Of a DNA stretch of 22,845 nucleotides, positions 4,568 through 22,229 are shown piece after piece. This DNA is from a virus, in the IMG/VR virus record IMGVR_UViG_3300035187_004799, positions 1-22,845 of that record; one strand, given 5' to 3'. The translations under genes were made by a program, and so were the position numbers. The notes under the pieces are model-generated. The model saw only the letters and a program-made list of their open reading frames with translations, searched no databases and was not told the origin of the DNA. Numbering within the stretch: position 1 is the stretch's first letter; the number at the start of each line of letters is the position of its first letter.

Positions 4568-4773
4568 TGGCAATAAATTTCCCAAACTCTCCCTCAATAG
4601 GGGATACTCACTCATCTGGTGCCAAGACATGGACATGGGACGGGGAAAAGTGGCTGCTGAACCCAGAAGACATAGCATTCACCGTAGACAATCTGGATGG
4701 TGGTATTCTTGAAATAGATGAGGCTGAAGTGTCAAATAATTTAATTTTTACTTTTGATGGAGGTGTCTTGTAA
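4567..4773 (+). CDS. Small tail-fibre-associated protein
   Basis: A 68-residue protein opening [20 protein letters not shown] followed by DGEKWLL. This '[11 protein letters not shown]...g.tWtWdG.kW' motif is a common short N-terminal or stand-alone module in phage tail proteins. The remaining about 38 residues are acidic and beta-prone. The gene is coupled by TAATG overlaps to both neighbours, so it is almost certainly co-translated with the fibre genes. It may be a linker or chaperone-like piece for the large fibre downstream, but nothing in the sequence proves that. Confidence 0.65.
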
Positions 4774-7700
4774 TGTCCGGTGCACGAATTCAAGTCAAGC
4801 GCTCCACAGCAGCGTCATGGACGTCAAATAACCCAGTTTTGTTTGCTGGAGAAATAGGTTTAGAAACAGACACAGCAAAATTTAAAATAGGCAACGGTTC
4901 AACGGCTTGGACCAGCCTTGCTTACTCCAGCGTTCCTTTATCTTTATCAAGTATTAACGACCTTGGCGACGTAACAATCACATCAGCCTCCTCCGGCGAC
5001 TTCTTGCGATGGAACGGCTCTACATGGATTAATGATGCCGTAAATCTTTCCACCGATACCATTGGTTCGTATGTTGAATCTCTTGTTGCTGGCACGGGTG
5101 TCACACTCTCTAACAACTCTGGCGAAGCCGCAACACCAACTGTTGCCATTGGGCAGGCAGTTGGAACCTCAGCCTCAGTAACTTTTGGACAACTGACAGT
5201 TAATGGTCAGACAAATGTTGGCGGGAACATTATCCCAAACACAAACGAGGCCTATGACTTAGGTTCTGCTTCTGCTCGCTTCCGTGACATCTATCTGTCG
5301 GGAACGACAATTGACCTTGGCGGCGTAGAAATAACGAGTGACGGAACGGACATTTCGTTTTCTGGCGGAATGAGTGTTGGCGGAAGCGCAAATTTCGTTG
5401 GCGACCTGACAGGGAATGCTGACACGGCCTCAACTCTTGAGACCGCACGCACAATTTCTCTTGCTGGCGATTTATCTGGTTCTGTTTCCTTTGATGGTTC
5501 TCAAAATGTAACCATTACCGCGACGGTGCAACCTGACAGCATTGCCCTTGGTACTGACACAACTGGAAACTTTGTCAACGACCTAACAGCGGGTACGGGC
5601 GTTACCGTAACGCACACACCCGGTGAGGGCTCCAGCCCGACAGTGGCTATTGGTCAGTCGGTAGCCACGAGCGCGTCTGTAACATTCGCACATGTTTCTG
5701 CGCCAGTAACAGGCAACGTAACGGGTGATGTTTCCGGTAATGCGGTAACCGCTACAGCCCTGCAAACGGCTCGGACAATTGCTGGTCAGTTATTTGATGG
5801 TTCCGCAAGTATCTCCATCGCCCCAACAGACTTGACTGGCGTTACCTCAACAGCCGCAGAAATCAACATTCTTGATGGTGCCACTCTTTCAACAACAGAA
5901 CTTAACTATGTGGATGGCGTAACTTCTGCAATTCAAACGCAAATGGATGCAAAGGCACCACTCGCCTCCCCAACATTTACTGGAACTGTCACAGTCCCCG
6001 CACCGACCAATCCGACTGATGCCGCGACCAAGGCATACGCCGACGCAATTGGCGCTGGAATTAATTGGCACAACTCAGTAGAAACGGCAACTGCAGCCGC
6101 TCTTCCAAATACACCGACTTATGCAAACGGAACAAACGGTGTAGGCGCAACCCTTACCGCATCCGCCAACGCAAGATTGGTGATGGACGGCATCAATACC
6201 ACTACGGGTGACAGGGTTTTGGTCAAGGACCAAGCCGATGCAACACAAAACGGAATTTATGTAGTTACGGCTCAGGGTTCCGTCAGCGTTCCGTATGTAC
6301 TTACGAGGGCATCAGACCACGACAATTTGAATGATGAGGTCGTGCGAGGCGACGCTGTCTATGTGGCAAATGGTGCAACAAACATAAACCAAGGTTTCAT
6401 TATCTCTTCGGAGGGAACTGGCGAGAACGACAAACACGTTCTCGGAACCGATGACATGAACTGGTCACAGTTCACTGGCGCGGCAAACATAACTGCGGGA
6501 ACGGGAATCACAAAGACTGGCAATACTCTCTCAATAGGGCAAAGTGTTGCGACTAGTGCATCGGTTACATTCGCTCATGTAGCAGCAGACGTAACAGGAA
6601 ATGTCACTGGGAATGTAACAGGAAATGTCAATGGGAATGTAACTGGGAATGTAACTGGGAATGTAACTGGTAGTTCCGGTTCCACTACTGGAAACGCCGC
6701 AACTGCAACCGCTTTGCAGAACGCGCGAACAATCTCACTTTCTGGAGATGTCTCAGGCTCTGTATCATTTGACGGAACCAGCAATGTTTCAATCAGTGCA
6801 ACAGTTCAGCCCGACTCGGTTGCGCTAGGAACAGACACAACTGGCAACTTTATGTCCGACCTTACCCAGGGTACCGGTGTAACGATTACTCACACCCCTG
6901 GTGAGGGTTCGAATGCGACAATCGCAATCGGTCAGGCTGTTGCCACATCGTCATCTGTAACATTCGCGCATGTTTCTGCGCCATTGACAGGAAATGTCAG
7001 CGGAAACGTAACGGGCAATGTCACCGGAAACCTGACTGGAAATGCCGACACAGCCACCTCACTGCAGACCTCCCGAGCCATCTCACTTGGCGGCGACCTC
7101 AGCGGTTCTGCTTCGTTCAACGGCTCGTCGGATATTACAATCACCGCAACTGTTCAGCCGGACAGTGTTGCGCTCGGTGCAGACACGACCGGCAACTACA
7201 TGTCAGATGTTACTGCTGGCACCGGTGTAACTGTCACCCACACTCCAGGTGAGGGCTCCTCGGCTACTATCGCAATTGGTCAGGCTGTCGGCGCATCTGA
7301 CAATCCATCATTCGCTGGAATTACTGCAGATGGTGTTCAGATTGGTATTTCGGCATCAGCAGAAATTGACACAACCGCCGGCAATCTAGTAATTGACTCA
7401 GCAGGCGGAACGGTCACAATTGACGACAACTTGATTATTTCTGGTGACCTCACGGTTAATGGGACAACGACAACCGTCAATACGGAGACAATCAATCTCG
7501 CTGACAACATCATTGTTCTCAATAGCAATGAGACAAGCGCGCCATCACAGAATGCTGGTATTGAAGTTGAACGTGGAACGTCGGCAAACGTTGCCGTCCG
7601 CTGGAATGAAACAAGCGATAAGTGGGAAATCACTGAAGATGGCTCTACGTATTACGACATTGCTACAACATTTTATGTTGACGGGCAAAGCATTACATCG

Positions 7701-8321
7701 CTCGACGAGATTGGTGACGTCTCAATCACTTCTGCCTCTGCTGGCCAGTTCCTTAAGTGGAACGGTTCAGCATGGGTAAATGACTCAATTCCCACCATCA
7801 ACACGCTTGACGATGTTGGCGATGTAACAATAACTTCTGCCACTGCGGGTGACTTTTTGAAGTGGAACGGTTCAGCATGGGTAAATGACCCAATCGATTT
7901 GGGAACCGATACGACTGGCAGTTACGTTAAGTCATTAAGCATATTCGCTAGTGCAGGTCTTGACCTCAGTTCAACCGATGACAACGGAGACAAGACATTC
8001 ACGCTCAGTTTGGCAGATGTGTCAACCAATGCTCAAATCGCCAGTTACACGCTTGTGCTAGGTGATAAGAATAAGATTGTGGAAATGAATGTTGCCTCTG
8101 GAAATAACCTCACAGTCCCACCAAACTCATCCGTGGCATTTCCAGTTGGTACGCAAATCAACATTTTGCAGGTTGGCGCTGGTCAGACCACAGTTGTTCA
8201 AGGGTCTGGCGTAACCGTAAATGCTGCTCCAGGCTTGAAACTGCGAACACAATGGTCGTATGCTACGCTCATCAAGCGAGCAACCAATACTTGGGTTCTC
8301 GTCGGAGACATTTCAGCGTAA
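4773..8321 (+). CDS. Large repeat tail fibre, 1182 residues, with Mtd-type N-terminus
   Basis: Probable receptor-binding fibre. Residues about 4-50 (IQVKRSTAASWTSNNPVLFA, GEIGLETDTAKFKIGNGSTAW) match the N-terminal module of phage tropism-determinant and fibre proteins. The shaft contains three copies of a roughly 100-residue unit (TISLxGDlSGSvSFdG, ATVQPDSxALGxDTTGN, TAGTGVTVTHTPGEGS, AIGQxVaTSaSVTFAH) at about 5420-5780, 6700-7030 and 7050-7320, with a degenerate copy near 5050-5200. Residues about 409-570 hold the TGDRVLVKDQ...QNGIYVV domain also found in the 484-residue fibre. A VTGN array lies at 6591-6674. The C-terminal about 100 residues (TVPPNSSVAFPVGTQI, GVTVNAAPGLKLRTQWS) form a recognisable fibre tip domain. 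The start is fixed by TAATG coupling. Confidence 0.85.
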   Translation: MSGARIQVKRSTAASWTSNNPVLFAGEIGLETDTAKFKIGNGSTAWTSLAYSSVPLSLSSINDLGDVTITSASSGDFLRWNGSTWINDAVNLSTDTIGSYVESLVAGTGVTLSNNSGEAATPTVAIGQAVGTSASVTFGQLTVNGQTNVGGNIIPNTNEAYDLGSASARFRDIYLSGTTIDLGGVEITSDGTDISFSGGMSVGGSANFVGDLTGNADTASTLETARTISLAGDLSGSVSFDGSQNVTITATVQPDSIALGTDTTGNFVNDLTAGTGVTVTHTPGEGSSPTVAIGQSVATSASVTFAHVSAPVTGNVTGDVSGNAVTATALQTARTIAGQLFDGSASISIAPTDLTGVTSTAAEINILDGATLSTTELNYVDGVTSAIQTQMDAKAPLASPTFTGTVTVPAPTNPTDAATKAYADAIGAGINWHNSVETATAAALPNTPTYANGTNGVGATLTASANARLVMDGINTTTGDRVLVKDQADATQNGIYVVTAQGSVSVPYVLTRASDHDNLNDEVVRGDAVYVANGATNINQGFIISSEGTGENDKHVLGTDDMNWSQFTGAANITAGTGITKTGNTLSIGQSVATSASVTFAHVAADVTGNVTGNVTGNVNGNVTGNVTGNVTGSSGSTTGNAATATALQNARTISLSGDVSGSVSFDGTSNVSISATVQPDSVALGTDTTGNFMSDLTQGTGVTITHTPGEGSNATIAIGQAVATSSSVTFAHVSAPLTGNVSGNVTGNVTGNLTGNADTATSLQTSRAISLGGDLSGSASFNGSSDITITATVQPDSVALGADTTGNYMSDVTAGTGVTVTHTPGEGSSATIAIGQAVGASDNPSFAGITADGVQIGISASAEIDTTAGNLVIDSAGGTVTIDDNLIISGDLTVNGTTTTVNTETINLADNIIVLNSNETSAPSQNAGIEVERGTSANVAVRWNETSDKWEITEDGSTYYDIATTFYVDGQSITSLDEIGDVSITSASAGQFLKWNGSAWVNDSIPTINTLDDVGDVTITSATAGDFLKWNGSAWVNDPIDLGTDTTGSYVKSLSIFASAGLDLSSTDDNGDKTFTLSLADVSTNAQIASYTLVLGDKNKIVEMNVASGNNLTVPPNSSVAFPVGTQINILQVGAGQTTVVQGSGVTVNAAPGLKLRTQWSYATLIKRATNTWVLVGDISA
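6591..6674 (+). repeat. 12-nt tandem repeat array (seven units) in the fibre gene
   Basis: Seven consecutive 12-nt units of the form GTAACTGGGAAT encode Val-Thr-Gly-Asn (one unit has Asn for Thr; the last ends Gly-Ser). The last four units are nearly identical at DNA level, which is a substrate for slippage or recombination. A second, more diverged stretch of the same motif (GNVSGNVTGNVTGNLTGN) lies near 6985-7040 in the same gene. It is coding throughout and in frame. Confidence 0.85.
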
Positions 8322-8324
8322 TTT

Positions 8325-8813
8325 ATGGCAAGCAGAGCACCAAAAGACAGTGGCGGGAAAAAGCCAACGACACCGACATCCCCGACTGGCACCGCTTCGC
8401 CAGTTGTTGCAGCCGCTAACCCAAATGACTTACAAACAGTCAGTGTTGCATTCACACCATCTTCGTATGTCGGTAAAGGCACAGTTACCTATACCGCAAC
8501 TTCAAGTCCTGGCGGTTTGACGGGAACGAGTGCCACATCGCCAATCACTGTTACTGGTCTTACTTCTGGCACCGCATATACATTTACCGTTACGGCGAAT
8601 ACAAACTATGGCGTGCCCTCCGATGTTTCCACTTCATCTCCAGCCGTTACTCCCCCATACTTCCCTCCATTCTTCCCGCCGTTTTTCCCACCATTCTTTC
8701 CTCCTTTCTTTCCTCCTTATTTCCCTCCATACTTTCCTCCTTTCTTCCCTCCATTCTTCCCCCCTTTCTTTCCTCCATATTTCCCTCCATGCTTCAAGTT
8801 CGCGCCCTGCTGA
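8325..8813 (+). CDS. Fn3-domain protein with C-terminal PPxF repeat tail
   Basis: A 162-residue protein with two parts. Residues about 24-108 form a fibronectin type III-like domain (TVSVAFTPSSYVGKGTVTYT, ITVTGLTSGTAYTFTVTA, NYGVPSDVS). Residues about 110-157 are twelve uninterrupted Pro-Pro-aromatic-Phe units (eight PPFF, three or more PPYF, last PPCF), and the protein ends with KFAPC. There is no signal peptide or membrane segment. The start lies 3 nt after the fibre stop (8319-8321), so it is probably a fibre accessory, tip or linker. Proline-aromatic arrays are stiff, sticky and plausible for a fibre or protein-protein contact. Two cysteines near the end might form a disulfide. The function is unknown. 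Confidence 0.72.
   Translation: MASRAPKDSGGKKPTTPTSPTGTASPVVAAANPNDLQTVSVAFTPSSYVGKGTVTYTATSSPGGLTGTSATSPITVTGLTSGTAYTFTVTANTNYGVPSDVSTSSPAVTPPYFPPFFPPFFPPFFPPFFPPYFPPYFPPFFPPFFPPFFPPYFPPCFKFAPC
8652..8795 (+). repeat. 12-nt repeat array encoding PPxF units
   Basis: Twelve 12-nt units, each two Pro codons, a Phe/Tyr (last Cys) codon and a Phe codon. The coding strand is almost pure pyrimidine across the array, with scattered A (in CCA, TAC, TAT) and very few G. Codon choice varies between units (CCT/CCA/CCC/CCG; TTC/TTT), so the protein repeat is conserved more than the DNA repeat. Confidence 0.88.
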
Positions 8814-8840: not shown

Positions 8841-8849
8841 ATGAATCAG
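8833..8849. promoter_or_regulatory. Perfect 8-1-8 inverted repeat centred on the start codon
   Basis: CTGATTCA (8833-8840), a single A (8841), then TGAATCAG (8842-8849) form a perfect dyad whose centre is the A of the start codon. The left arm overlaps the last two bases of the -10 box. It is a candidate operator for a dimeric regulator, because a 1-nt loop is too tight for an RNA hairpin unless the inner pairs open. Confidence 0.5.
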
Positions 8850-9566
8850 GATGTTGGTGTATATTTTCTTCACATACCTAGAACATCTGGCAGAGCAACA
8901 CACATAGACTTGTACAACTCTGGGGTGAGTCTAAGCACGCCTTCGCTGGATGATTATCTTTCAAAAAATGAATGGGGAAATAACTCCCTGCTGTGCGGGC
9001 ACTTTGGAAATCATCCAATTAAAAAAAATGACAATGACAAAAAACTTTTACAAGAACTCTTGCCGAATCATAACCGAACCATAAAAACGTTCACCATTGT
9101 CAGGGACCCAGTATCGCATACTGCAAGTATGTCCGTTTTCGCTCCAGAAGGTGTGTCAAGAATGGAGTTTGCGAAAATGCTTATTTACGGAGAACCGTCT
9201 AACAGGTTCCCTTTTGTGGCTAATCCTCAGTCTTCATTCATATCCTCGGATATATCATTTGCCGAAAAAGGAACATGGGGAGAATATGAACTGCCACGCA
9301 TATCTTTTTCAAACAGTGCACAAGAAGTATTAGATGTAGTAAATTTTGCAGACTCAAACGGAATACAAATATACTCACTTGAAAATAGGCACATTTTTCT
9401 ACAAAAGATAGCAGAATGTTTTGACATTCATTTCGTGGAAGTTGACCACTTTCCCAAGGAAACGAATGCAGAAATTGAAGAGTTTTGCATGGACAATTCT
9501 GAAGCAATTTTGCAAAAACATCATATCGATTATGGTCTGCACTCATTGGCGGTGTTAGGGTTATAG
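8841..9566 (+). CDS. Sulfotransferase-like protein
   Basis: A 241-residue protein with the two landmarks of PAPS-dependent sulfotransferases. Residues 8-17 (YFLHIPRTSG) correspond to the 5'-phosphosulfate loop (usual form FLHIPKTGGT, here Lys replaced by Arg14). Residues 83-97 (TFTIVRDPVSHTASM) correspond to the 3'-phosphate-binding VRDPxxRxxS motif. An intermediate CGHFGNHP (52-59) matches the xGHxxxG segment of the carbohydrate sulfotransferase-2-like group. The expected reaction is transfer of sulfate from PAPS to a glycan or protein hydroxyl, in the cytoplasm. The Lys-to-Arg change in the loop and the missing second Arg of the 3' motif could weaken activity. It is the first gene after the fibres and has its own promoter. 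Confidence 0.68.
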   Translation: MNQDVGVYFLHIPRTSGRATHIDLYNSGVSLSTPSLDDYLSKNEWGNNSLLCGHFGNHPIKKNDNDKKLLQELLPNHNRTIKTFTIVRDPVSHTASMSVFAPEGVSRMEFAKMLIYGEPSNRFPFVANPQSSFISSDISFAEKGTWGEYELPRISFSNSAQEVLDVVNFADSNGIQIYSLENRHIFLQKIAECFDIHFVEVDHFPKETNAEIEEFCMDNSEAILQKHHIDYGLHSLAVLGL

Positions 9567-9567
9567 A

Positions 9568-10206
9568 ATGAGCGTAGAACAAACATCAGAAAGTCCATGG
9601 AAAATCAAGCCAGGGCACTTTGGGAATAGCGCTTCAAATATAGTGGTTATTGAAAATTTTGTGGAATTAGAAGATTTAAAACTTATTCAAGAGTTCTGCC
9701 CGACGATTAATGAATGGAACAACTCTGCCAAAAGCGTTTACGCCGAAGATGGGACTTGTCTTTACAACGCCGATTACTGGAACGACCGACAATGCAGTAG
9801 TGAAATCCTTGAAAAACTGAATAAACAGGTTTGGCTCATTGTTGAAAAATACATTGACAAAATGCAAAAAACCATTGAAGACTTCTACAAAGTTAAAGTC
9901 AGCAAACGCCCACCAGTCATAATGAAGTGGCGTCCAGGAATTGAACAGAGACCCCATGCTGATAAACAACTAAACGACGGCAGACCCAACGCATTTGTTG
10001 ATTATGACCTCAACTCTCTGCTCTACTACAACGACGATTTTGAGGGTGGAGACCTGTTTTACCCTCAACACGACATCACGATACGACCAAAGCCTGGCTT
10101 GGCCGTGATGCACCCTGGCGACGTCAACTACTTGCATGGCGTAACAATGATTACAGAAGGATTTAGGTACACGACCCCGTCGTTTTATACGGTGGTTGAC
10201 TCATAA
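9568..10206 (+). CDS. Fe(II)/2-oxoglutarate oxygenase, prolyl-4-hydroxylase type
   Basis: A 212-residue oxygenase that would use Fe(II), O2 and 2-oxoglutarate to hydroxylate a substrate. The metal triad and co-substrate residue are visible: His130 and Asp132 (RPHAD), His190 (YLHGVT) and Arg200 (GFRYTTPSFY). LLYYNDDFEGGDLFYPQ before the second half is the usual P4H-type strand pair. The length is typical for the stand-alone catalytic domain. It starts 1 nt after the previous stop; TAGGGT at 9556-9561 is a possible second leaderless promoter or a weak AGGG ribosome site. The 3' end overlaps a converging minus-strand gene by 44 nt. The substrate is unknown. Confidence 0.85.
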   Translation: MSVEQTSESPWKIKPGHFGNSASNIVVIENFVELEDLKLIQEFCPTINEWNNSAKSVYAEDGTCLYNADYWNDRQCSSEILEKLNKQVWLIVEKYIDKMQKTIEDFYKVKVSKRPPVIMKWRPGIEQRPHADKQLNDGRPNAFVDYDLNSLLYYNDDFEGGDLFYPQHDITIRPKPGLAVMHPGDVNYLHGVTMITEGFRYTTPSFYTVVDS

Positions 10207-10726
10207 TTCTGTTTTCTTTTTTTGCTTTGTCTTCGCAATATACTGGAGTCCAAATACCATCAGTAAACAGCGAGCCGATAAACTGAGCCCGCCCCCCATG
10301 TAGGAGCATCAATCGGGTCAACCCATCTTTGGCAAAAGACTCTTTTAAGGGATAGCCGTGGATTGCGCCGTCGACGTATTCATATTTTCCTTGCGCCACT
10401 GTCTCATAAAATGACTGCTCGGATGACTCGCCCCACAACGAATTAAAGTCAACAAGAAGTTTGTCAAAACCCGTATGTATCAAAAGTTCGGCAGTTTCGG
10501 GTCCGCTGTTGCCAAAACCAATTGACATAATCACGTCAGAGCGGTCTGATAATTCCTGAATTGTTCCCACATCAATTGCGTCAACAGAATTCGCTCTATT
10601 AATTGTTTTTTGCGAACGGCCTTGAGATGCCCAAATAATCGAGTGACCCGAATAGCGCAATGATGAAGCAAGTGACGAACCCATTACCCCAAGGGAAACA
10701 ATGCCGACAACAAACCGTTCGTTCAT
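10163..10726 (-). CDS. NAD(P)-binding Rossmann protein, truncated 3-hydroxyisobutyrate/6-phosphogluconate dehydrogenase type
   Basis: A 187-residue protein with the N-terminal dinucleotide-binding domain of beta-hydroxyacid dehydrogenases: residues 7-21 (VGIVSLGVMGSSLAS), the GH at 27-28, DVIMSIGFG (64-72), LVDFNSL (91-97), the FxDAPVSGG-like segment YVDGAIHGYPLKES (117-130) and a LLHGG element (141-145). The first Gly of the GxGxxG loop is Ser11. The family is normally near 290 residues; the all-helical C-terminal domain with the catalytic Lys is missing, so oxidoreductase activity is doubtful. It could be a binding domain or a decayed gene. It is divergent from the phytanoyl-dioxygenase-like gene across 22 nt and has a leaderless-type -10. 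Confidence 0.7.
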   Translation of the reverse strand: MNERFVVGIVSLGVMGSSLASSLRYSGHSIIWASQGRSQKTINRANSVDAIDVGTIQELSDRSDVIMSIGFGNSGPETAELLIHTGFDKLLVDFNSLWGESSEQSFYETVAQGKYEYVDGAIHGYPLKESFAKDGLTRLMLLHGGRAQFIGSLFTDGIWTPVYCEDKAKKENRIMSQPPYKTTGSCT

Positions 10727-10738
10727 GCCATTATGTTA
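10727..10738 (-). promoter_or_regulatory. Leaderless-type -10 promoter (TAACAT), minus strand
   Basis: Read on the minus strand, TAACAT occupies 10738 to 10733 and is followed by 6 nt and then the ATG at 10726. It shares its TA (10737-10738) with the -10 of the divergent plus-strand gene. No good -35 is seen. Confidence 0.5.
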
Positions 10739-10748
10739 GCCTGATTAT
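10737..10748 (+). promoter_or_regulatory. Leaderless-type -10 promoter (TAGCCT), plus strand
   Basis: TAGCCT at 10737-10742 is followed by exactly 6 nt and the ATG at 10749. There is no Shine-Dalgarno sequence in the 22-nt gap to the divergent gene. The -10 overlaps that of the minus-strand gene by two bases. No clear -35. Confidence 0.5.
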
Positions 10749-11762
10749 ATGAGCACTAATAAACCGAAAGATTTTGACACCTCTACCGCTTGGCACGATT
10801 ATACGGTTACTGAAATAATTGCTAGACATTTTTGGGTCGGAGAAACAACTGGTTATCAGGCTATTGCCAACGCATGGGCGCAAATAGCAGAAGGGAAAAT
10901 AGACGAATTAGGTCTTGATGTGGGTTTTACCGAAGGCGTGGGTTTTCTGCATGCCCTAAACACGTTTGGAAAAAATATTCACATCAATGGTTATGGACAC
11001 AAAACTAACGGTGGACGCCAATCATATGTCGATTATCGATTACTCGAGCAGTACACCTCCAGTAATCACAATCACTTTATGGACAATGGATATGCGGTGC
11101 GCCTGAACGCGTCACCGCACCAGGCCATTGATGACTACAAATCAAAGTATGCAAACGAAATGATTTTAGTGGAGGACGGCGGCAAATCTTATTTGCCCTC
11201 AACAAAAGAATATCTTGTTTCTGATTCTATTGTTTCCATTCTTTGTGGTGACTTTATGGAGTCGTTAGCAGATTCAATGGACACAACATATGGGCTCAAA
11301 TCAGTTAGTGCAATTATGTCAGCACCGAGAACTCATTGGAAGACGGAATCACCATGGTGCAATGAACAAGTCAATTCACCGAACGCTATTTTGGTAATGG
11401 CCGCCATAGAAGACCACCACCCTCTATCGGGCGTATTGCAAATATCTTCTGGGTCGCACAAGTTAGACGCCAACCCAGAAATCATGAAAGACCTAGGCGC
11501 TATGGAGACATACAGTGAATATGTCCAATTTTGTCATTTTTTGGCAAACCTGGATGTTGGAAAAATATATCAACACATGCCCATGGCAGGCGACATAATC
11601 GCGTGGCATGAAAAATCTTTGTATTCCAACGCATTGCCTGGCAATCACAAAGCGCATACCAGAAACTCACTAATTGGGGTGTTTGAAAAAGTCAATATCG
11701 ACGACAATAAGGATTCCTTGATACCGATTCCGAATAGAAATAGGTTGTTTCTTATTAAGTGA
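10749..11762 (+). CDS. Phytanoyl-CoA-dioxygenase-like (PhyH-type) protein
   Basis: A 337-residue protein whose C-terminal half has the landmarks of PhyH-type non-haem iron oxygenases: THWKTESPW (195-203, the HxD/E region), a long VMAAIED strand (216-222), SGVLQISSGSHK (227-238, cf. 'G.L..iPGSHk'), GDIIAWHEKS (281-290) and KAHTRNSL (301-308) containing the likely distal His and co-substrate Arg (candidates His287 or His300, and Arg305). The usual HxD is replaced by His196...Glu200 spacing, so metal binding needs testing. The N-terminal about 180 residues are not recognised. It converges on the peroxidase-like gene with stop codons adjacent inside a perfect inverted repeat. Confidence 0.58.
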   Translation: MSTNKPKDFDTSTAWHDYTVTEIIARHFWVGETTGYQAIANAWAQIAEGKIDELGLDVGFTEGVGFLHALNTFGKNIHINGYGHKTNGGRQSYVDYRLLEQYTSSNHNHFMDNGYAVRLNASPHQAIDDYKSKYANEMILVEDGGKSYLPSTKEYLVSDSIVSILCGDFMESLADSMDTTYGLKSVSAIMSAPRTHWKTESPWCNEQVNSPNAILVMAAIEDHHPLSGVLQISSGSHKLDANPEIMKDLGAMETYSEYVQFCHFLANLDVGKIYQHMPMAGDIIAWHEKSLYSNALPGNHKAHTRNSLIGVFEKVNIDDNKDSLIPIPNRNRLFLIK

Positions 11763-11784
11763 TTACATGTTCAACATGTAATCA
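11760..11784. terminator. Perfect 12-1-12 inverted repeat across convergent stop codons
   Basis: The arms TGATTACATGTT (11760-11771) and AACATGTAATCA (11773-11784) are exact reverse complements around a single C. They contain the TGA stop of the plus-strand gene and the TAA stop plus last codons of the minus-strand gene. The position suits a bidirectional terminator or transcript-end hairpin, but the stem is AT-rich and no clear T tract follows on either side. A protein-binding site is therefore equally possible. Confidence 0.5.
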
Positions 11785-12626
11785 ATATCGTCTTTGATTA
11801 TCCTTAGGGATTCGTCAATGCCTTTTTGCTGCAACCTGCTTGGATATGGGGCATTTGTCCACTCAAAGAACTCTTTTTCCCCTAATTCCTCTTTAAGTTT
11901 TTCCAAACCTTCGCCGTGCCACCACGGGAAAAACTCTCCGTGTTGACTACGTTCACCAAGGAGAAACCCGTTGTGGTATCGCATATATTGTGTTCCTGTT
12001 TTGTCAATCAAGAACTTTGTAAAATTTCCCGTCAAATTACACATGCCTTTTTTGTCTTCCGGTTTCGAAGCCTTTACCTTTGCCCATGGGATAAATTCAT
12101 CACTATACGGAGTTCCATTTTCCTGAAAGTCTGCTTCATGGCATCTTGTCAGGTAAAACCACAGTTCATGAATGTCCTGAAGTTTTTGAGTATTGGGCAC
12201 AAAGTCTTCGCTGTATGAGTGCTTATCGTAGCGACCGTTTGTCAATTCGGTGAACTCATATGTTGCACCAAAATGTGTTTGAGCATAATCTTTTGCCACT
12301 TGACCTGGTGTGAGGTGTAGGGCATTTTTTTCGGCATACGAGGCAAGCCCTCCCTGAAACTGTTCATATCCGTGGCAAACAAAGTCGTCAACGACCACAG
12401 CCAAAATTGTAAAATCAGGGTTTCCTTTGTACATTTGATGAAGTTGCTCAATTACGCCGTGTTGGGGGATATTCCCACAGCCTGCAGCGACGTTGAATAG
12501 GAGGGTCACCTTACCCTTTGCGTCGGCCAGCACATCGTCGTTTTTCCCGTCGGCGGACTTGATTTTTATGTCGTAAATAGACAACGGTAGGGTTTCAATT
12601 GTTCTGGAAATAGACTTTACGCTCAT
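11763..12626 (-). CDS. Glutathione-peroxidase-like thioredoxin-fold protein
   Basis: A 287-residue protein resembling glutathione peroxidases. LLFNVAAGCGNIPQHGVIEQ (42-61) matches the 'lNVASxCGfTpQY..Le' active-site segment, with Cys50 in the peroxidatic position. FTILAVVVDDF (72-82) replaces the 'vLgFPCNQF' segment. GNFTKFLIDKTGTQYMRY (200-217) matches 'WNFTKFLID.dG.v..Ry'. Of the usual Cys-Gln-Trp-Asn tetrad only Cys50 and Asn201 remain; Gln is Asp81 and Trp is Gly200. About 100 extra residues (83-190) include Cys84 and Cys162, and a C-terminal extension follows. A thiol-based reductase or redox partner is possible; classical peroxidase activity is unproven. It is transcribed alone from a strong leaderless-type promoter. 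Confidence 0.62.
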   Translation of the reverse strand: MSVKSISRTIETLPLSIYDIKIKSADGKNDDVLADAKGKVTLLFNVAAGCGNIPQHGVIEQLHQMYKGNPDFTILAVVVDDFVCHGYEQFQGGLASYAEKNALHLTPGQVAKDYAQTHFGATYEFTELTNGRYDKHSYSEDFVPNTQKLQDIHELWFYLTRCHEADFQENGTPYSDEFIPWAKVKASKPEDKKGMCNLTGNFTKFLIDKTGTQYMRYHNGFLLGERSQHGEFFPWWHGEGLEKLKEELGEKEFFEWTNAPYPSRLQQKGIDESLRIIKDDIDYMLNM

Positions 12627-12645
12627 ACCAACATTCTACTATGAT
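12616..12645 (+). promoter_or_regulatory. Divergent plus-strand promoter (TTTACG / TATGAT)
   Basis: TTTACG (12616-12621), an 18-nt spacer and TATGAT (12640-12645) predict a start near 12652, giving a leader of about 24 nt that holds the GAAAGG ribosome site (12661-12666) for the ATG at 12676. It overlaps the divergent minus-strand promoter. Confidence 0.45.
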
Positions 12646-12660
12646 GAGACCCATGGTCAA
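12627..12660 (-). promoter_or_regulatory. Leaderless-type promoter (TTGACC / TAGAAT), minus strand
   Basis: On the minus strand, TTGACC (12660-12655) and TAGAAT (12638-12633) are separated by 16 nt, and the ATG at 12626 follows after exactly 6 nt. Near-consensus -35 and -10 boxes and the lack of a ribosome site make this one of the two clearest leaderless promoters in the window. Confidence 0.62.
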
Positions 12661-12675
12661 GAAAGGTGCAATCAA

Positions 12676-13365
12676 ATGAACTCGGCAGTTAATGTTTCAT
12701 GCGAATACCTGGGGGACCCTCGTTTTGCGATGATGGTCTACAGGAATATGCTTCCCAAAGAATTGCGCTTAGTGGAACGCCTAGAAGATACGATAGGCGC
12801 AAGCGCGACACCGCCCTACATGTGGATGGAGGCCCTCGTTGGGCACGAGCAAAAAATGCCCGAATACAGAGACTGCTTTGACTGCAAAATTAGCGAAGAC
12901 CTTGCAAATCAGGCACCCAATGAGTTTTCTGAAATAAAGGCTATTTGGTCAGATACAACCGAAAGACTGACGCCTTGCTTGCGACACTACGAATCAATGT
13001 ACAACGTAAAAATGGATTACATGGAAGCAATCAATTACGTCAAGTATGGACCTAAGCAACACTTTCAAACGCATACCGACCACGGCTTTTCCTACACCTG
13101 CACCATATCGTCAATCATGTATCTCAATGACGACTATGAAGGTGGGGAACTGTTTTTCCCGTATTTTGATTTGAAGTTTAAACCCGAGGCAGGCGACATC
13201 GTCTTCTTCCCTTCAACTTTCATATTCGCACACGCGGCCCTACCGGTACAAAGTGGGCTAAAATACTCGGCGGTGACGATGTTTGACTACAACGATAAGA
13301 ACCACAATCAGGTTCATTTATACTCACCAACTGCAGCAACACGTGGAGTCAGTACATCTGCATGA
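12676..13365 (+). CDS. Fe(II)/2-oxoglutarate oxygenase, prolyl-4-hydroxylase type, with Lys in the 2OG site
   Basis: A 229-residue oxygenase. Visible residues are His133 and Asp135 (QTHTDHG), His186 (FAHAAL) and Lys196 (SGLKYSAVTMF). SSIMYLNDDYEGGELFFPY (145-163) and KPEAGDIVFFPS (169-180) are the standard strand pair. The position that binds the 2-oxoglutarate carboxylate is Lys rather than the Arg of its neighbours, as in animal collagen prolyl 4-hydroxylases; bacterial homologues more often have Arg. The ribosome site GAAAGG (12661-12666) supports the start. The stop overlaps the DUF6065 start as ATGA, so the two are co-translated. The substrate is unknown. Confidence 0.85.
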   Translation: MNSAVNVSCEYLGDPRFAMMVYRNMLPKELRLVERLEDTIGASATPPYMWMEALVGHEQKMPEYRDCFDCKISEDLANQAPNEFSEIKAIWSDTTERLTPCLRHYESMYNVKMDYMEAINYVKYGPKQHFQTHTDHGFSYTCTISSIMYLNDDYEGGELFFPYFDLKFKPEAGDIVFFPSTFIFAHAALPVQSGLKYSAVTMFDYNDKNHNQVHLYSPTAATRGVSTSA

Positions 13366-14069
13366 CGCATGTCCAATTTGTTAAGACGACACAAACTCCT
13401 CCTGAAATCAGGCAATCAAGAATTAAAAGAGATTGGATGGATGAAACTTACAAAAAGCATGCCTATCAGTGCATGCCTATGTCAGTCGCTAATGTTTTGG
13501 GTTGGGAACTAGTACTAAGCGAAGATGTTGTTGTGCAGTGGGATGGCGGCAACCATGTCCCAAAAATCCTGTCTGGCGAATTCTCAAAAAATGGATTCAA
13601 ACAAGTTCATTGTTCAATCATAGGAATGGTGTCTTTCGCCATGGGATGGGTTATCAGGACAGAGGATAATTACAGCACTTGGTTTTCTGGTTCACCAAAT
13701 TTCATCAAAGAAGATGCGCAGGCTCTTTCGGCAACTGTTCCCACATTTTGGTGGCCAGATGAGGTTCAAATGAATTGGAAGATAAATAAAATCGGCACGC
13801 CAGTAACATTTAGGGCAGGTGACCCGTTTTGTTTTTTTAACGTATATGAAAACACGGTGATGCTTGATGTCAGTGTTTCCGTAGGCAATTTATGGGATGA
13901 CAAAGAACTTATGGAGCAAAGAATGAAGTACGACCAACTCAAGACAAAAATCAACACCGAGAAACCGTGGACATGGGCAAAAGGAATCAAAACAGGTCTT
14001 GATGCTGACGGAAACGTTATTGGGCCATCATTCACAGGGCTCCCAGTAATTGCCGTTCCAAATCAGTAG
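13362..14069 (+). CDS. DUF6065 family protein
   Basis: A 235-residue protein that I recognise as DUF6065 from several conserved blocks in order: PEIRQSRIKRDWMDET (residues 14-29), YQCMPMSVANVLGWEL (35-50), VVVQWDGG (56-63), GMVSFAMGWVIRTEDNYSTW (87-106), VQMNWK (134-139) and FRAGDPFCFFN (147-157). The family function is not known to me; no catalytic signature is obvious beyond conserved Trp, Asn and Gly residues. The ATGA overlap with the upstream oxygenase suggests the two act in the same pathway. It is followed by a 15-nt gap that holds the next gene's -10 box. Confidence 0.82.
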   Translation: MTHVQFVKTTQTPPEIRQSRIKRDWMDETYKKHAYQCMPMSVANVLGWELVLSEDVVVQWDGGNHVPKILSGEFSKNGFKQVHCSIIGMVSFAMGWVIRTEDNYSTWFSGSPNFIKEDAQALSATVPTFWWPDEVQMNWKINKIGTPVTFRAGDPFCFFNVYENTVMLDVSVSVGNLWDDKELMEQRMKYDQLKTKINTEKPWTWAKGIKTGLDADGNVIGPSFTGLPVIAVPNQ

Positions 14070-14084
14070 TGGTATAATCGCTCC
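14050..14084 (+). promoter_or_regulatory. Leaderless promoter (TTGCCG / TATAAT)
   Basis: TTGCCG (14050-14055), a 17-nt spacer and consensus TATAAT (14073-14078) are followed by exactly 6 nt and the ATG at 14085. The -35 lies in the 3' end of the DUF6065 gene. No ribosome site exists, so the start codon is probably the first transcribed base. Dyad elements ATCG (14077-14080) and CGAT (14090-14093) flank TCCATGGA (14082-14089). Confidence 0.68.
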
Positions 14085-15116
14085 ATGGACGATAGATACT
14101 TTGGTCACTATCCAGTAATTGACGACCAGTCGGTTAGTGAAATTATGGCCATGGACATGGTCAAACTTGGTGGAGGCGTAATCTCATTTCCTAAGGCTTT
14201 TGAGGTAAATCAAGAACAGTTGCTTCCGTGGATTGACAAAGAGGGGCAAAACGCGAATGAGCAAAGATGGAAATTTGACTACGACTTATCAGGACAAAAA
14301 TACGCCGTTAACGAAGATGGCAACAAATTCTCCTTGGAACAGATGAATGAGGTGCCGAAGAGGGTGCTTCAGGTGGTTGACGATAAAACTGAACAGAGCA
14401 TGGTTGATTACTTTAGATATCTTGAGGATTCAATTTACAAATGCGTAATTAAATACATACATGAATACCCCATGGTTCTACCGACTCTCTGGTGGAGAAC
14501 AAGGGGACATGCTTTGCGATACTCAACCGGCAACTACTTGGGAGTGCACAATGACAATGACACCAATTTTAGGGCACAGAAGGGAAAGAAGTACATACCA
14601 AAAGGCCAACTAGGTGCGCGTCAGACAATCGCAATCATGGCGTATTTCAACGACTGCGTAGACGAGGGTTCGGTCGGCGAGAATCAGTATTCAGGAGGCG
14701 AGTTATTTTTCCCTTACCTGGGGGTTGAATACCAAGCAAAAGCGGGAGACATAGTTGTTTTTCCATGCAACTTTATTGCTACGCACGGCGTTAAAATTGT
14801 CAAGGAAGGCAATCGATACGGGTATTTAACTTTCTATGCTCAAGGAAGCAGCGACCGCAATGTGCTCGTAGAGGTATTCGATGTGGACACGGTCAAGGCG
14901 TGGTGTGAACCCCATTGGCTAGAGAACATTTACGACGATTACAAAAAATATTGTCTGATTGAAGAATACGGCAAAGACCAGCATGATTTAAGCAGTAATA
15001 CAAATCCCATCTTCCAGAATAGGTCGCTTGAAGGTGAAGAAGGTTTGAAGCAGCCATACAGGCACAAGGACGTGTTTGATGCCAATAATAAACGAGGAAA
15101 AGTACAGTCCCTATAA
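14085..15116 (+). CDS. Fe(II)/2-oxoglutarate oxygenase, long paralogue 1
   Basis: A 343-residue member of a four-gene paralogous family in this window. An N-terminal domain of about 100 residues begins with GGGVISFPKAFEVNQEQLL (29-47), a motif repeated in the other three. The catalytic core has LGVHNDNDTNFR (152-163) with His155 and Asp157, YSGGELFFPY (202-211), KAGDIVVFPCNFIATHGV (219-236) with His234, and NRYGYLTFYAQGS (243-255) with Arg244. The WWRTRGHALRY block (136-146) is shared with the paralogues. The C-terminal extension of about 85 residues is longer than in the others. All four key residues are present, so it is probably active. The substrate is unknown. Confidence 0.85.
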   Translation: MDDRYFGHYPVIDDQSVSEIMAMDMVKLGGGVISFPKAFEVNQEQLLPWIDKEGQNANEQRWKFDYDLSGQKYAVNEDGNKFSLEQMNEVPKRVLQVVDDKTEQSMVDYFRYLEDSIYKCVIKYIHEYPMVLPTLWWRTRGHALRYSTGNYLGVHNDNDTNFRAQKGKKYIPKGQLGARQTIAIMAYFNDCVDEGSVGENQYSGGELFFPYLGVEYQAKAGDIVVFPCNFIATHGVKIVKEGNRYGYLTFYAQGSSDRNVLVEVFDVDTVKAWCEPHWLENIYDDYKKYCLIEEYGKDQHDLSSNTNPIFQNRSLEGEEGLKQPYRHKDVFDANNKRGKVQSL

Positions 15117-15130
15117 GGGCTTTCGCCTTT
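15115..15130 (+). terminator. Weak hairpin terminator candidate
   Basis: AAGGGC (15115-15120) pairs with GCCTTT (15125-15130), with one G-T wobble, over a TTTC loop, starting in the stop codon of the preceding oxygenase. The run of three T is part of the stem and CCCC follows, so termination would be inefficient. Confidence 0.35.
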
Positions 15131-15194
15131 CCCCATTTGGGTAGCGGCGTGCTATTATTGGATACAGTACGACAAGACAAAGTAAAGGCAAAAA

Positions 15195-15431
15195 ATGAAA
15201 ATCAGCGCAAATATTGACAGAGTGACTCAAAAGCGCCTTGTGCAAGAGGCAATCGTGGCGCAAGAAACCGAAATTTTTGGCGTTTTGCTTCGCCAAGGGG
15301 TGGACGTTGATGCTTTTGATGAAAACGCTTTTTCTCCGTCTGCCGATGCTCCGCAATGGCAACTTGACGTAAAGGAAAAAATTGGATTAATTGCATCCCT
15401 TAAATCACGCTTAGAAAAACTTGAGAAATAA
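15195..15431 (+). CDS. Small protein of unknown function, 78 residues
   Basis: Not recognised. It opens with a short strand and helix (MKISANIDRVTQKRLVQEA), has an acidic middle (VDVDAFDENAFSPSADAP) and ends in a charged helix (SLKSRLEKLEK) that could be a short coiled coil. A good ribosome site, AAAGG at 15184-15188, sits 6 nt before the ATG. TATTAT at 15153-15158 may be a -10 box. It is the first of four small genes packed head to tail; the next begins immediately after its TAA. Coding is supported by spacing, ribosome site and lack of a competing ORF of better quality on the other strand. Confidence 0.6.
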   Translation: MKISANIDRVTQKRLVQEAIVAQETEIFGVLLRQGVDVDAFDENAFSPSADAPQWQLDVKEKIGLIASLKSRLEKLEK

Positions 15432-15647
15432 ATGAATCTTTCAGAAGCCCAACTCGCCAACGCAAAACAAGAAGCAAAAGAACTTCTTGAGTACTCAATC
15501 GGCGTTCTTTGTTTTTCGCTTGGTGTTGACGTCTCCACAATCGATGAGTCTTACGACCATGACTTTACAGAAGGGCATTCTGAGTATGCCGCTCATGAAT
15601 CACTCAAGCGTCAAGTCGCCAATTACGTTTTGATTTCTGGCTCTTAG
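15432..15647 (+). CDS. Small protein of unknown function, 71 residues
   Basis: Not recognised. It is predominantly helical: an N-terminal Ala/Glu/Lys-rich helix (residues 3-22) followed by a hydrophobic helix (YSIGVLCFSLGVDV) and an acidic/His-rich loop (DHDFTEGHSEYAAHES). The ATG directly follows the TAA of the previous gene, so translation is probably coupled. The phrase 'LGVDVSTID' echoes 'GVDVDAF' in the preceding protein and 'VVGLDPANF' in the fourth small protein, hinting at one distantly related mini-family. That is weak evidence. Confidence 0.58.
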   Translation: MNLSEAQLANAKQEAKELLEYSIGVLCFSLGVDVSTIDESYDHDFTEGHSEYAAHESLKRQVANYVLISGS

Positions 15648-15649
15648 AC

Positions 15650-15838
15650 ATGATTCCAAAACCTTTTGTTCCATTTGGGATAATTGAAGCACAACAAGAA
15701 AAACCAGTTGTGTTTAAGTTTGACGATTACGATAACAATGTTGCTCGATTTAATCCAAACACGCGACAGTGGGAATTTAAAAACGGTCAAATGATGAATT
15801 GCGGTGTCGGTGACGGTTTCCTAGCGGGAGAGGAGTAA
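15650..15838 (+). CDS. Small protein of unknown function, 62 residues
   Basis: Not recognised. Residues 1-16 are Pro-rich (MIPKPFVPFGIIEA); the rest alternates short strands with acidic turns (FKFDDYDNN, ARFNPNTRQWEFKNGQMMNC). It is too short for domain assignment. The ATG lies 2 nt after the previous stop and the stop is 4 nt before the next gene, fitting the same small operon. It may be an early or accessory phage protein. Confidence 0.52.
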   Translation: MIPKPFVPFGIIEAQQEKPVVFKFDDYDNNVARFNPNTRQWEFKNGQMMNCGVGDGFLAGEE

Positions 15839-15842
15839 AAAT

Positions 15843-16145
15843 ATGCCAAGGTCCTGTACTGCAAATTCATCAGAAAAACTTTTTGACGCAGACCAACATA
15901 TTGTCGATTTGTGGCAAGACATTGCTCAAATTCTTTTTGTTGTCGGTCTTGACCCTGCCAACTTTGAAAATTATGAACTTGAAGAAATTATTACTGCCTT
16001 AATGGAAACATTTTTAGTGAAAAATTCCATGTTTGGAAAAAACCCCGCACATCCATTTGTTTATGGAAAGTACAAGAGTTTGGTACACAAACTGAGAAAC
16101 GATTTTTTATACTTAAAAATATCTAAATACGGGGAACAACTATGA
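15843..16145 (+). CDS. Small protein of unknown function, 100 residues
   Basis: Not recognised. The predicted content is almost all helical: residues 10-35 (SEKLFDADQHIVDLWQDIAQ), 43-62 and 70-97 with regular hydrophobic spacing (LWQDIAQILFVVGLDPANFE, LEEIITALMETFLV, YKSLVHKLRNDFLYLKI). There are no cysteines beyond Cys5 and no catalytic motif. The stop overlaps the methyltransferase-like start as ATGA, so it is co-translated with that gene. A small helical partner protein is plausible but unproven. Confidence 0.58.
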   Translation: MPRSCTANSSEKLFDADQHIVDLWQDIAQILFVVGLDPANFENYELEEIITALMETFLVKNSMFGKNPAHPFVYGKYKSLVHKLRNDFLYLKISKYGEQL

Positions 16146-16894
16146 AACCAGAAGTCATCCTAACAGGAATGGTGAGCACGCAACTTTCTTCATCTGGTAG
16201 TTCGCTAATCTCGGAAGAATACAAGGCGAATGTAGAGGAAACTTCAACTAAGTATTGGAACACTTTGCTTGAAGCAAATGTCGATTTGACCCACAACGCT
16301 TTGGGCATGCACACTGTTGCAACAGCATTTCAACTTAGAAAACAGATGACTGATGAGATGTGGTATGGCATGTTTGTCCCTCAAATGTTAGTAGAGAATT
16401 TTTTGCTTCACACCAAAAAACCTAAATCAATATTGTTTGTTGGGGCATGCAGTAGCCCGATGACTTATTTTTTTATGTCACCAGAAAATGTTTTTGATGG
16501 CCTAAAAGACACAAGCATAAATTTTGTCAACGACGCCAGCCTTTTTCTATTTGAAAAAAATCTAAAAAATGTTTACGCAAACAGTTCTTTTGGTTATTCG
16601 GTTTATGATAAATCCGAACTACTTTCCGAGGTGGATAATAAATTTGAAATGATTGTGGCTCATGCTTATGCTTGGGATATTATGCTTGATGAGGAATATC
16701 TCAATTCATTGGTCAACAATTTGGCTTCGGGCGGGATTCTTGTTATTGCTGGCACAAACGAGTCATCATCGATATATTCATCCTCCTACCGCTGGCACCC
16801 ATATTACGACGCACATGAAGCGCTCAAAAATTTGCCAGGGGTTTCTTACCATTTTGCACAATTCTTGGGAACTTCAGTTTTTGTAAAGAACTAG
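16142..16894 (+). CDS. Class I SAM-methyltransferase-like protein
   Basis: A 250-residue protein with the outline of a Rossmann-type methyltransferase: KSILFVGACSSPMTYFFM (95-112) as the SAM-binding motif I, INFVNDAS (126-133) with the motif II acidic residue, FEMIVAHAYAWDI (168-180) as motif IV, and LASGGILVIAGTN (194-206) as the post-motif strand. The usual E/D-x-G-x-G-x-G loop is reduced to GACSSP, so SAM binding is probable at best and the protein could be a related nucleoside-binding fold. The N-terminal about 90 residues are helical. It is coupled to the upstream small gene by ATGA. A 9-bp hairpin with a U-rich flank follows the stop. Confidence 0.5.
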   Translation: MKPEVILTGMVSTQLSSSGSSLISEEYKANVEETSTKYWNTLLEANVDLTHNALGMHTVATAFQLRKQMTDEMWYGMFVPQMLVENFLLHTKKPKSILFVGACSSPMTYFFMSPENVFDGLKDTSINFVNDASLFLFEKNLKNVYANSSFGYSVYDKSELLSEVDNKFEMIVAHAYAWDIMLDEEYLNSLVNNLASGGILVIAGTNESSSIYSSSYRWHPYYDAHEALKNLPGVSYHFAQFLGTSVFVKN

Positions 16895-16901
16895 ATTCTC
16901 G

Positions 16902-16925
16902 CTATGTGGGTCTATGCCCATATAG
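16902..16925. promoter_or_regulatory. Hairpin / operator-like dyad overlapping a -10 box
   Basis: CTATGTGGG (16902-16910) pairs with CCCATATAG (16917-16925), with one G-T wobble, over a 6-nt loop. It follows the methyltransferase-like stop and its right arm runs into TAGTAT (16923-16928). It may end the upstream transcript (TATTTG follows) or act as an operator of the downstream oxygenase. Confidence 0.45.
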
Positions 16926-16934
16926 TATTTGTGT
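16923..16934 (+). promoter_or_regulatory. Leaderless-type -10 promoter (TAGTAT)
   Basis: TAGTAT at 16923-16928 is followed by exactly 6 nt and the ATG at 16935. No ribosome site precedes this ATG, and no -35 was found at the usual distance. The -10 overlaps the right arm of a 9-bp dyad. Confidence 0.52.
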
Positions 16935-17846
16935 ATGAAAGCACCAACAAATTACGGAATGGGAATTGTCTGTTTTCCAAAGTCCATAGAAGTCAACCAG
17001 GATTTGGTTGTTCCGTATTTCTCTGCACTGAAAGAAAAAGCAATTAGGGATGGCTACACGATTGTTCACGAGGATGGCTCGGAGCCTTACGCCGTAAACA
17101 GAAGCGGTCACAGATACGAAATTGACGAAATACAAAAAAGCGCTGGACGCATAATGGACTTCATTGATGACGAAAGCCCCAAAGAATTAGTTGCATTTTT
17201 TCAAGAATGTGAAAGAACTATCTATAATCATCTTTTGATGTACATAGAAATGTATCCACGTGTTCTTTCAAATATATGGTGGATGGAAACTGGTCATGTC
17301 GCCGCCTACGGTGCAGGAAGTGGCCTGGGCTTACACAACGACAACGAAGTAAATTATCAAGTTGGTTTTGAACCAGATTTGCAACTTGCCACAAGGCACG
17401 TATTGAGCGCATTGTTGTATTTAAATTCATCCGTAGGGGACAAGAAAGAGTTGGGCAAACACGAATACAGCGGTGGAGAAATTGAATTCATATATGCCAA
17501 CGCCGTGCACCAGCCCAAATCTGGTGACCTACTCATATTCCCATCAAACTACCTAGGCACCCATCAGGTGAAACCATGCTTGAGCGGAGAAAGATATGTT
17601 TACATTTCTTATTTTTCTCATGGTTCAGCCGATAGCGAAAGAGGCATACAGCCAGGACGGCCCGTTCCAGTAGGCAAGCAAAGTCAGGTTTGGCTACCAA
17701 CTATTGTTGATGATTATGTTTCCTACATCAAGGATAAACATTCCTCAAGTGACTTGATGTCTTTTATGGGTGGGGTTCTTAATCAAAATCACAGTTCAAG
17801 CACAAAGCATCATTTACCGCAAAACAGGGGTGCCGTCAATGAATAA
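16935..17846 (+). CDS. Fe(II)/2-oxoglutarate oxygenase, long paralogue 2
   Basis: A 303-residue protein of the same family as the gene at 14085. YGMGIVCFPKSIEVNQDLVV (7-26) is the shared N-terminal motif. WWMETGHVAAYGAG (115-128), LGLHNDNEVNYQ (131-142) with His134 and Asp136, YSGGEIEF (178-185), KSGDLLIFPSNYLGTHQV (195-212) with His210, and ERYVYISYFSHGS (219-231) with Arg220 complete the core. An in-frame TTG at 16929 was rejected in favour of ATG 16935, which has a -10 box 6 nt upstream. Its stop TAA overlaps the next ATG, so paralogues 2 to 4 form one operon. The substrate is unknown. Confidence 0.85.
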   Translation: MKAPTNYGMGIVCFPKSIEVNQDLVVPYFSALKEKAIRDGYTIVHEDGSEPYAVNRSGHRYEIDEIQKSAGRIMDFIDDESPKELVAFFQECERTIYNHLLMYIEMYPRVLSNIWWMETGHVAAYGAGSGLGLHNDNEVNYQVGFEPDLQLATRHVLSALLYLNSSVGDKKELGKHEYSGGEIEFIYANAVHQPKSGDLLIFPSNYLGTHQVKPCLSGERYVYISYFSHGSADSERGIQPGRPVPVGKQSQVWLPTIVDDYVSYIKDKHSSSDLMSFMGGVLNQNHSSSTKHHLPQNRGAVNE

Positions 17847-19675: not shown

Positions 19676-19900
19676 TCACCATTTACCTATTGGACATACG
19701 GCGTTAGTGAGTTTTGTTTTGAGAACCATAAAGCAGCCGCACTCCTTGCACTGTTTGGTGGCTTGCACGAGACGTGGGCAAACCTCGCAAATGTTCATAC
19801 GTTTACGAGCGGTGTTTTCGTCTGTATGGTTTTCTGGGTTGAGGGTATCCCACGGCCGAGTTTCACCAAGTTTCTTTTTATATTCCTGCCAAGCGCTCAT
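19676..19900 (-). CDS. Small cysteine-rich (zinc-ribbon-like, DUF6171-type) phage protein
   Basis: A 74-residue protein opening MSAWQEYKKKLGETRPWDTL, a start I recognise from small proteins of aquatic T4-like phages. The C-terminal half has five Cys in a zinc-ribbon or iron-site pattern: C-x2-C (38-41, ICEVCP), then C-x2-C-x-C (residues about 50-55, CKECGC) and a final Cys before PIGKW. Such proteins probably bind metal; no specific function is established here. It is divergent from the first glycosyltransferase; TAGAAT on the minus strand (19936-19931) and a weak AGAAAG ribosome site are the best initiation signals. It overlaps the spurious upstream extension of the glycosyltransferase frame. 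Confidence 0.75.
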   Translation of the reverse strand: MSAWQEYKKKLGETRPWDTLNPENHTDENTARKRMNICEVCPRLVQATKQCKECGCFMVLKTKLTNAVCPIGKW

Positions 19901-22203: not shown

Positions 22204-22229
22204 TTTTGCAACATAAATTTGTTGCAAAA
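22204..22229. promoter_or_regulatory. Perfect 10-6-10 inverted repeat at a start codon, with -10 box in the loop
   Basis: TTTTGCAACA (22204-22213) and TGTTGCAAAA (22220-22229) are exact reverse complements. The right arm ends on the A of the ATG at 22229. The 6-nt loop, TAAATT (22214-22219), fits the TANNNT -10 pattern, so a dimeric regulator bound here would cover the promoter. As RNA it could also form a start-codon hairpin. Confidence 0.5.

Follow-up and report, generated by a model that had tools for sequence, protein, structure and literature searches.

What a phage gains from a protein that ends in a long proline-aromatic repeat, and whether the genes next to it bear on that repeat, are the questions raised by an ORF in a 22,845-base virus record from IMG/VR, which was analysed over its whole length and is referred to here as the window. 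The ORF (8325–8813, + strand, ATG to TGA) encodes a protein of 162 aa that consists of an N-terminal peptide, a fibronectin-III (Fn3) domain, twelve PPxF units and a terminal KFAPC; we refer to it as the tract gene. A preliminary description of this DNA had read it as an Fn3 protein with twelve PPxF units, which was borne out exactly.

The tract protein and its repeat

The N-terminal peptide includes the motif KDSGGKKP (8343–8366), which is common to many Fn3-type relatives and is a putative attachment peptide. It is followed by the Fn3 domain (8376–8630; aa 18–102), which Pfam PF00041 matched over aa 39–102 with an E-value of 4.9e-5 and 23.9 bits against a cut-off of 25, while the same domain reached 58–63 bits in three relatives (L017, L056 and L064). 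The AF2 model showed strands over aa 18–93, with high pLDDT, arranged as a beta-sandwich. Fn3 domains also led the Foldseek results, the best PDB match being that of chitinase A1 (1k85, 4.5e-4). The PPxF tract itself (8652–8795; aa 110–157), the putative distal rod and hydroxylation substrate, was modelled with low confidence and no secondary structure, and a PDB search with the tract alone gave no match. No signal peptide was evident by eye, and a search for promoters and terminators near the gene gave counts not above those of shuffled sequences.

The units run without interruption in the order PPYF, four PPFF, two PPYF, three PPFF, PPYF and PPCF, and then KFAPC (8796–8810). Eleven of the twelve units are distinct as DNA, as against three kinds of unit as peptide. 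Codons 1, 2 and 4 vary only synonymously, while codon 3 encodes Phe, Tyr or Cys; thus, the suggestion that the DNA repeat is more variable than the protein repeat holds for the window.

A DNA pattern of five units matched at least 120 IMG/VR stretches. Among 84,980 prokaryote genomes it matched only four times, three of them in phage-like contigs; the fourth, in Paraburkholderia (L203), seems to be an out-of-frame artefact and was rejected as a true tract. The three phage-like contigs came from MAGs of Verrucomicrobiales and Gammaproteobacteria and may be mis-binned. A Verrucomicrobiales MAG contig (L202) that is probably a phage contig and offers a possible host hint carries tandem tract genes with 7 and 16 units and ox1-type oxygenase genes (see below) downstream. 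No psbA was found in the 45 records searched, so a cyanobacterial host is without support.

Among the matches listed there were 123 distinct tract proteins (99 complete) with 5–31 units each, and 165 distinct tracts of period 4 and like composition spread over many contigs, a recurrence that argues against a chance repeat. A single imperfect internal unit, GPFF, was detected in the 1562 units examined, a regularity that the search pattern itself enforces in part. Position 4 was Phe in 1603 and Tyr in 10 of 1613 units, these being the two residues that the pattern permitted there, and position 3 was Phe, Tyr or His in the majority of units. The earlier view of a highly regular repeat under selection at the protein level is supported.

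The number of units differed even between contigs with identical flanks (L008, L009 and L183 with 21, 24 and 27; L077 and L078 with 12 and 17; L092 and L178 with 22 and 29), differences that are a lead rather than proof since metagenome assembly can miscount repeats. In the near-identical phages L008, L009, L183, L260 and L359, tract lengths were 21, 24, 27 and 30, all multiples of three, and such three-unit steps fit a higher-order repeat PPYF-PPFF-PPFF. The preliminary description had held that random variation in repeat number without conserved composition would count against it; the number does vary among relatives, yet they keep closely to one composition, and the variation seems to be in the length of a constrained rod.

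That description had also placed the repeat in no named phage structural family, and our searches agree with it. The protein had no match in PHROG or NCBIfam, and tblastn against 50,697 phage records, with the low-complexity filter on, gave nothing at E ≤ 0.01, the weaker matches (E 2–9) covering only the Fn3 domain. The string PPFFPPFF was absent from the open-access papers searched, a scope outside which most subscription journals and preprints lie.

Fibre neighbourhood and exchangeable tips

The tract gene starts 3 bp after a long tail fibre gene (4773–8321, + strand) with matches to tail PHROGs and an Mtd_N N-terminal domain (Pfam 6.2e-11). In relatives, too, a fibre-like gene lay directly upstream in 81 of the 92 cases that could be tested, as called by phmmer against the fibre genes of the window, some of which are repetitive. 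The proximity to a fibre gene that had been noted for the window is thus a recurrent feature, and it is the position expected of a tail-fibre tip gene.

The pairing of Fn3 and repeat fared less evenly. An Fn3 start followed by the tract does recur, but PASTA domains can precede the tract as well (Pfam 2.7e-6 and 9.6e-6), and Fn3 relatives can bear other tips, namely Peptidase_S74 (3.8e-12), Gly_rich_2 (3.5e-16) or Lcl_C (1.2e-11). Where the end is Peptidase_S74, a chaperone domain, it comes after four PPFF units. Further ends found on the Fn3 start are kelch-like, Cys-rich or (PPVT)n, as well as T-runs or P-runs before Cys-rich ends, and in three contigs (L088, L115 and L161) the tract is internal and followed by other domains. 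The domain architectures thus mark the PPxF tract as an exchangeable fibre-tip module on Fn3 or PASTA proteins. It resembles the S74, Lcl_C and Gly_rich_2 tips as an exchangeable C-terminal module on the same Fn3 start, and differs from these folded domains in being a repeat for which no secondary structure is predicted.

KFAPC, for which a disulfide or metal site had been proposed, is not conserved; among the matches listed it was present in this phage alone, while 53 of the 99 complete tract proteins end in ...FK.

Several variants of this architecture were observed. Two Fn3 hub genes (L016:3652–4317 and L028:7974–8537) have (PPVT)n in place of PPxF and then a Cys-containing end, the former with a 2OG gene 671 bp downstream. 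A Hint/intein-like domain follows the tract in L066:5996–6856, L119 and L185, with scores for the Intein_splicing and Hint models below the Pfam cut-off; it is arranged as if self-cleavage left the tract as the mature C-terminus. L066:5996–7541 holds two adjoining Fn3-PPFF genes, one with the Hint-like end and the other with Peptidase_S74. Self-cleavage is known for the S74 family, and in S74-type tract proteins the PPFF end would become the mature terminus after it.

Two other ORFs of the window may be mentioned. The first (19676–19900, − strand) encodes a DUF6171 protein with a Cys-rich pattern, and by eye like starts were seen downstream of the tract genes in L120 and L147. The second, an open ORF (22229–22843, + strand), has a signal-peptide-like start and, by eye, a PEP-CTERM-type exported look, which is unusual in phage.

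An oxygenase subfamily that accompanies the tract

Many genes after tract genes resemble one family of 2OG-Fe(II) oxygenases, that of ox1 (9568–10206, + strand), a prolyl-hydroxylase-type oxygenase and putative modifier of the PPxF prolines. The ox1-type gene is the most informative feature of these loci, and it was missed by the preliminary description. Between it and the tract gene lies a sulfotransferase-like gene (8841–9566, + strand; weak match to phrog_3347, 0.0012), which is not constant in relatives and is missing from this place in L004.

In a PDB sequence search the nearest proteins to ox1 were procollagen lysyl hydroxylase LH3, prolyl 3-hydroxylase 1 (P3H1) and the prolyl 4-hydroxylase (P4H) of B. 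anthracis, and a profile of 58 sequences matched P3H1 (3e-10), B. anthracis P4H (1.2e-7), PiuC (1.5e-6) and PBCV-1 P4H (1.4e-3). The iron triad of the HxD...H...R site was found in full, with H130, D132, H190 and R200 invariant in the 58 relatives. In the AF2 model (pLDDT 94.2, pTM 0.88), Foldseek ranks 1–4 were vCPH of PBCV-1 (5c5t, the top match at 2e-9) and P3H1, and VIA Z-scores were 17.9 for P3H1, 17.3 for PHD2, 16.8 for vCPH and 16.4 for PiuC. With P3H1, PHD2 and vCPH as the best matches, the fold is prolyl-hydroxylase-like, PiuC-type PKHD hydroxylases scoring near the prolyl hydroxylases in both profile and fold. The Lys that binds the C5 carboxylate of 2OG in collagen-type P4H is replaced in ox1 by Arg200, ten residues past H190, a mode of binding which we take to be that of PHD2 and P3H; thus, C4, C3 or even another residue are all possible targets. 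We conclude that ox1 has a predicted prolyl-hydroxylase fold with intact catalytic residues, a fold that does not fix the exact reaction.

When ox1 was used as query, 80 loci were recovered, which are 72–100% identical to it and thus partly one lineage; the tract lay 47–2608 bp upstream in 67 of them, 13 were too short to tell and none was without it. A query with the fibre N-terminus, blind to both tract and ox1, gave 45 loci with 7 kb downstream. All 13 with a tract had a 2OG gene, in each case with a score of 200 bits or more against the ox1 model, while 11 of the 32 without a tract had any 2OG gene (Fisher 3.7e-5) and none reached 200 bits; this threshold and that of 150 bits used below were picked after the data had been seen. 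Three of the tract-less loci scored 197 bits; they appear to be one lineage with a Pro-rich tail, PPSFGPSFPPPFGPSF, by the enzyme, as read in L372, where the Fn3 protein ends in PPSFGPSFPPPFGPSFGPSFAPAFK with the enzyme alongside.

A third query, with a tract-less Fn3 relative, found a 2OG gene in 6/6 loci with a tract (five at 150 bits or more) and in 4/47 without (none at 150 bits or more), one of the four having a (PPVT)n tail. Among loci found by the hub or by the tract pattern, 2OG genes were present in 33/35 with Fn3 and tract, 24/35 with a tract and no Fn3 hub, and 7/17 with Fn3 and no PPxF, a group in which (PPVT)n and PPSF-type tails occur. The ox1 type accompanied 32/34 Fn3-type tract genes and also 12/17 of the PASTA type, whose N-terminus is unrelated. 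Over whole contigs, it was absent at E ≤ 1e-40 from all 35 tract-less records searched, and was found in 6 of the 15 tract records, which had mostly seemed negative or weak near the tract before. Collapsing lineages by shared nucleotide sequence preserved the signal, with 7/7 against 1/11 fibre-query clusters and 46/54 against 5/15 hub loci (p 2e-4); these clusters are nucleotide-based and shallow, and related phages are not independent. The ox1 type is lacking in tract-less relatives that share the Fn3 hub or the fibre, so the presence of this enzyme subfamily goes with the tract rather than with either of those.

Pairs within one lineage were of less help, since most tract-minus contigs, judged by their lengths, seem to stop before the tract gene. 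The one clear contrast is L360 and L363, 80% identical over 8.4 kb, of which L363 has the tract and ox1 and L360 has neither, its 2OG match being weak (86 bits). The two genes are not always adjacent, with up to about 2.6 kb and other genes between them, and no 2OG gene was found in tract contigs L088, L115 and L161 or in the short contigs L120, L126 and L159. A search for cultured relatives of ox1 returned two distant single-cell marine viruses (L278 and L279), whose 2OG oxygenases lie near fibre-like genes with no PPxF tract. The linkage of ox1 and tract is no proof of substrate.

The window holds six 2OG-Fe(II) oxygenase genes of one superfamily within about 10 kb (9568–19592), and the linkage figures given above concern the ox1 subfamily. 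The second, ox2 (12676–13365, + strand; 2OG-FeII_Oxy_3, 1.5e-12), gave 208 bits against the family model of ox1 and may share the substrate of ox1; the other four lie at 14085–15116, 16929–17846, 17833–18714 and 18708–19592, all on the + strand. Between the oxygenases, on the − strand, are a gene similar to NAD-binding 6PGDH (10163–10726; 1.3e-4) and a glutathione-peroxidase-like gene (11763–12626; GSHPx, 4.2e-6).

A proposed hydroxylated fibre tip and its alternatives

The explanation that we favour, with about even confidence, is a phage-made rigid proline-aromatic fibre tip whose hydroxylation would fall to a prolyl hydroxylase that the phage encodes for this purpose. The product of 8325–8813 would be a tail-fibre tip or appendage protein, with the N-terminal peptide and the Fn3 domain linking it to the long fibre encoded just upstream. 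Its (PPxF)n would form an extended rigid rod, serving as the distal tip (most end in ...FK) or as a stalk on which another tip sits. In peptides, Phe-Pro bonds are cis more often than other bonds to Pro, and 4R-hydroxyproline promotes the trans form and polyproline II. Hydroxylation of some or all tract prolines by ox1 may thus favour trans, polyproline-II geometry at the expense of the cis form, to which aromatic-Pro bonds are prone; we propose that the rod would be stiffened in this way, with its aromatic side chains pointing out and the added hydroxyls available for host-surface contact.

Plant extensins and animal collagens likewise join a proline-rich repeat rod to a dedicated 2OG-Fe(II) hydroxylase, an analogy of working only, as repeats, organisms and compartments differ and no homology of substrate is claimed. 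Closer to phages, the collagen-like side-tail fibres of E. coli O157 prophages (EPclA) also have a proline-containing repetitive stalk, but theirs are G-X-Y repeats described as unhydroxylated (PMC3368898), whereas PPxF has period 4, no Gly and a hydroxylase-type gene. For the enzyme, the nearest parallel is vCPH of the chlorovirus PBCV-1, also a small virus-encoded prolyl hydroxylase. It differs in belonging to a eukaryotic algal virus and in having no proven natural substrate, whereas ox1, whose 2OG-binding residue is Arg, has a candidate encoded nearby; the chlorovirus enzyme is active on peptides, and hydroxyproline was sought in PBCV-1 virion proteins and not found (PMC7019647).

Perhaps oxygenase and tract travel together only because a set of related aquatic phages has both in one fibre cassette that is mobile or variable, and the enzyme acts on another fibre protein, a host protein or a small molecule. 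This would suit the six oxygenases of the window, the genes that separate ox1 from the tract in many loci, the marine single-cell viruses with 2OG genes beside fibre-like genes and no proline tracts, and the cyanophage 2OG genes, for which action on 2OG levels (2OG metabolism) or DNA repair has been proposed (PMC3037559). We consider it rather unlikely, as it does not account for the lack of the ox1 subfamily where the Fn3 hub or the fibre N-terminus is shared but the tract is missing, for its presence with PASTA-type tract genes, for the other Pro-rich tails found in several of the tract-less loci that do have a 2OG gene close by, or for the lead of prolyl hydroxylases among the fold matches of ox1. 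Were the tract left unmodified, as a rigid spacer or as an adhesive, hydrophobic tip of the fibre whose length changes by unequal recombination and tunes its reach, this would in turn explain the range of 5–31 units, unequal even between identical flanks, the occurrence of (PPVT)n, T-runs or P-runs in its place, ahead of Cys-rich ends, and its location between other domains in L088 and L115. This reading leaves unexplained both the linkage to a prolyl-hydroxylase-type gene and the near-constant Phe at position 4 with a mostly aromatic position 3, and we regard it as improbable.

The remaining two readings carry much less weight. That the tract protein is secreted or intracellular, such as a factor for host takeover or superinfection exclusion, and no part of the virion would agree with the location of its gene at the border of structural and auxiliary genes; the fibre neighbourhood, the lack of a signal peptide evident by eye, and the N-terminus shared with S74, Lcl_C and Gly_rich_2 tip proteins, which are structural in known phages, make it very improbable. 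A functionless simple-sequence expansion or an assembly artefact is scarcely credible. The repeat is in tandem, collapse may have distorted its counts in metagenome contigs, and some contig pairs differ by three-unit steps; but 11 of the 12 DNA units of the window are distinct at synonymous sites, so it is not a fresh microsatellite, and one imperfect unit in 1562 and 165 distinct tracts in many contigs also speak against it.

We thus retain the hydroxylated fibre tip as the working explanation. In Baltic Sea water, prolyl 4-hydroxylases belong to the viral auxiliary genes found in abundance, and their use has been called cryptic (PMC9301287). The titles and abstract openings listed in the open-access literature for phage tails or fibres together with prolyl hydroxylases report no phage hydroxylase-fibre pair. 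The tight pairing of an enzyme with one repeat module gives a concrete, testable substrate in two small genes. If true, this would be the first enzyme-substrate pair of its type in bacteriophages, and, if confirmed, phages would build fibre parts that are hydroxylated after translation, with PPxF as a new kind of fibre-tip module across many uncultured phages. We give a little less than an even chance to the view that many aquatic phages encode a proline-aromatic tip together with its own prolyl hydroxylase, so that their virions would carry hydroxyproline rods and at least part of the cryptic P4H genes of the virome would be explained.
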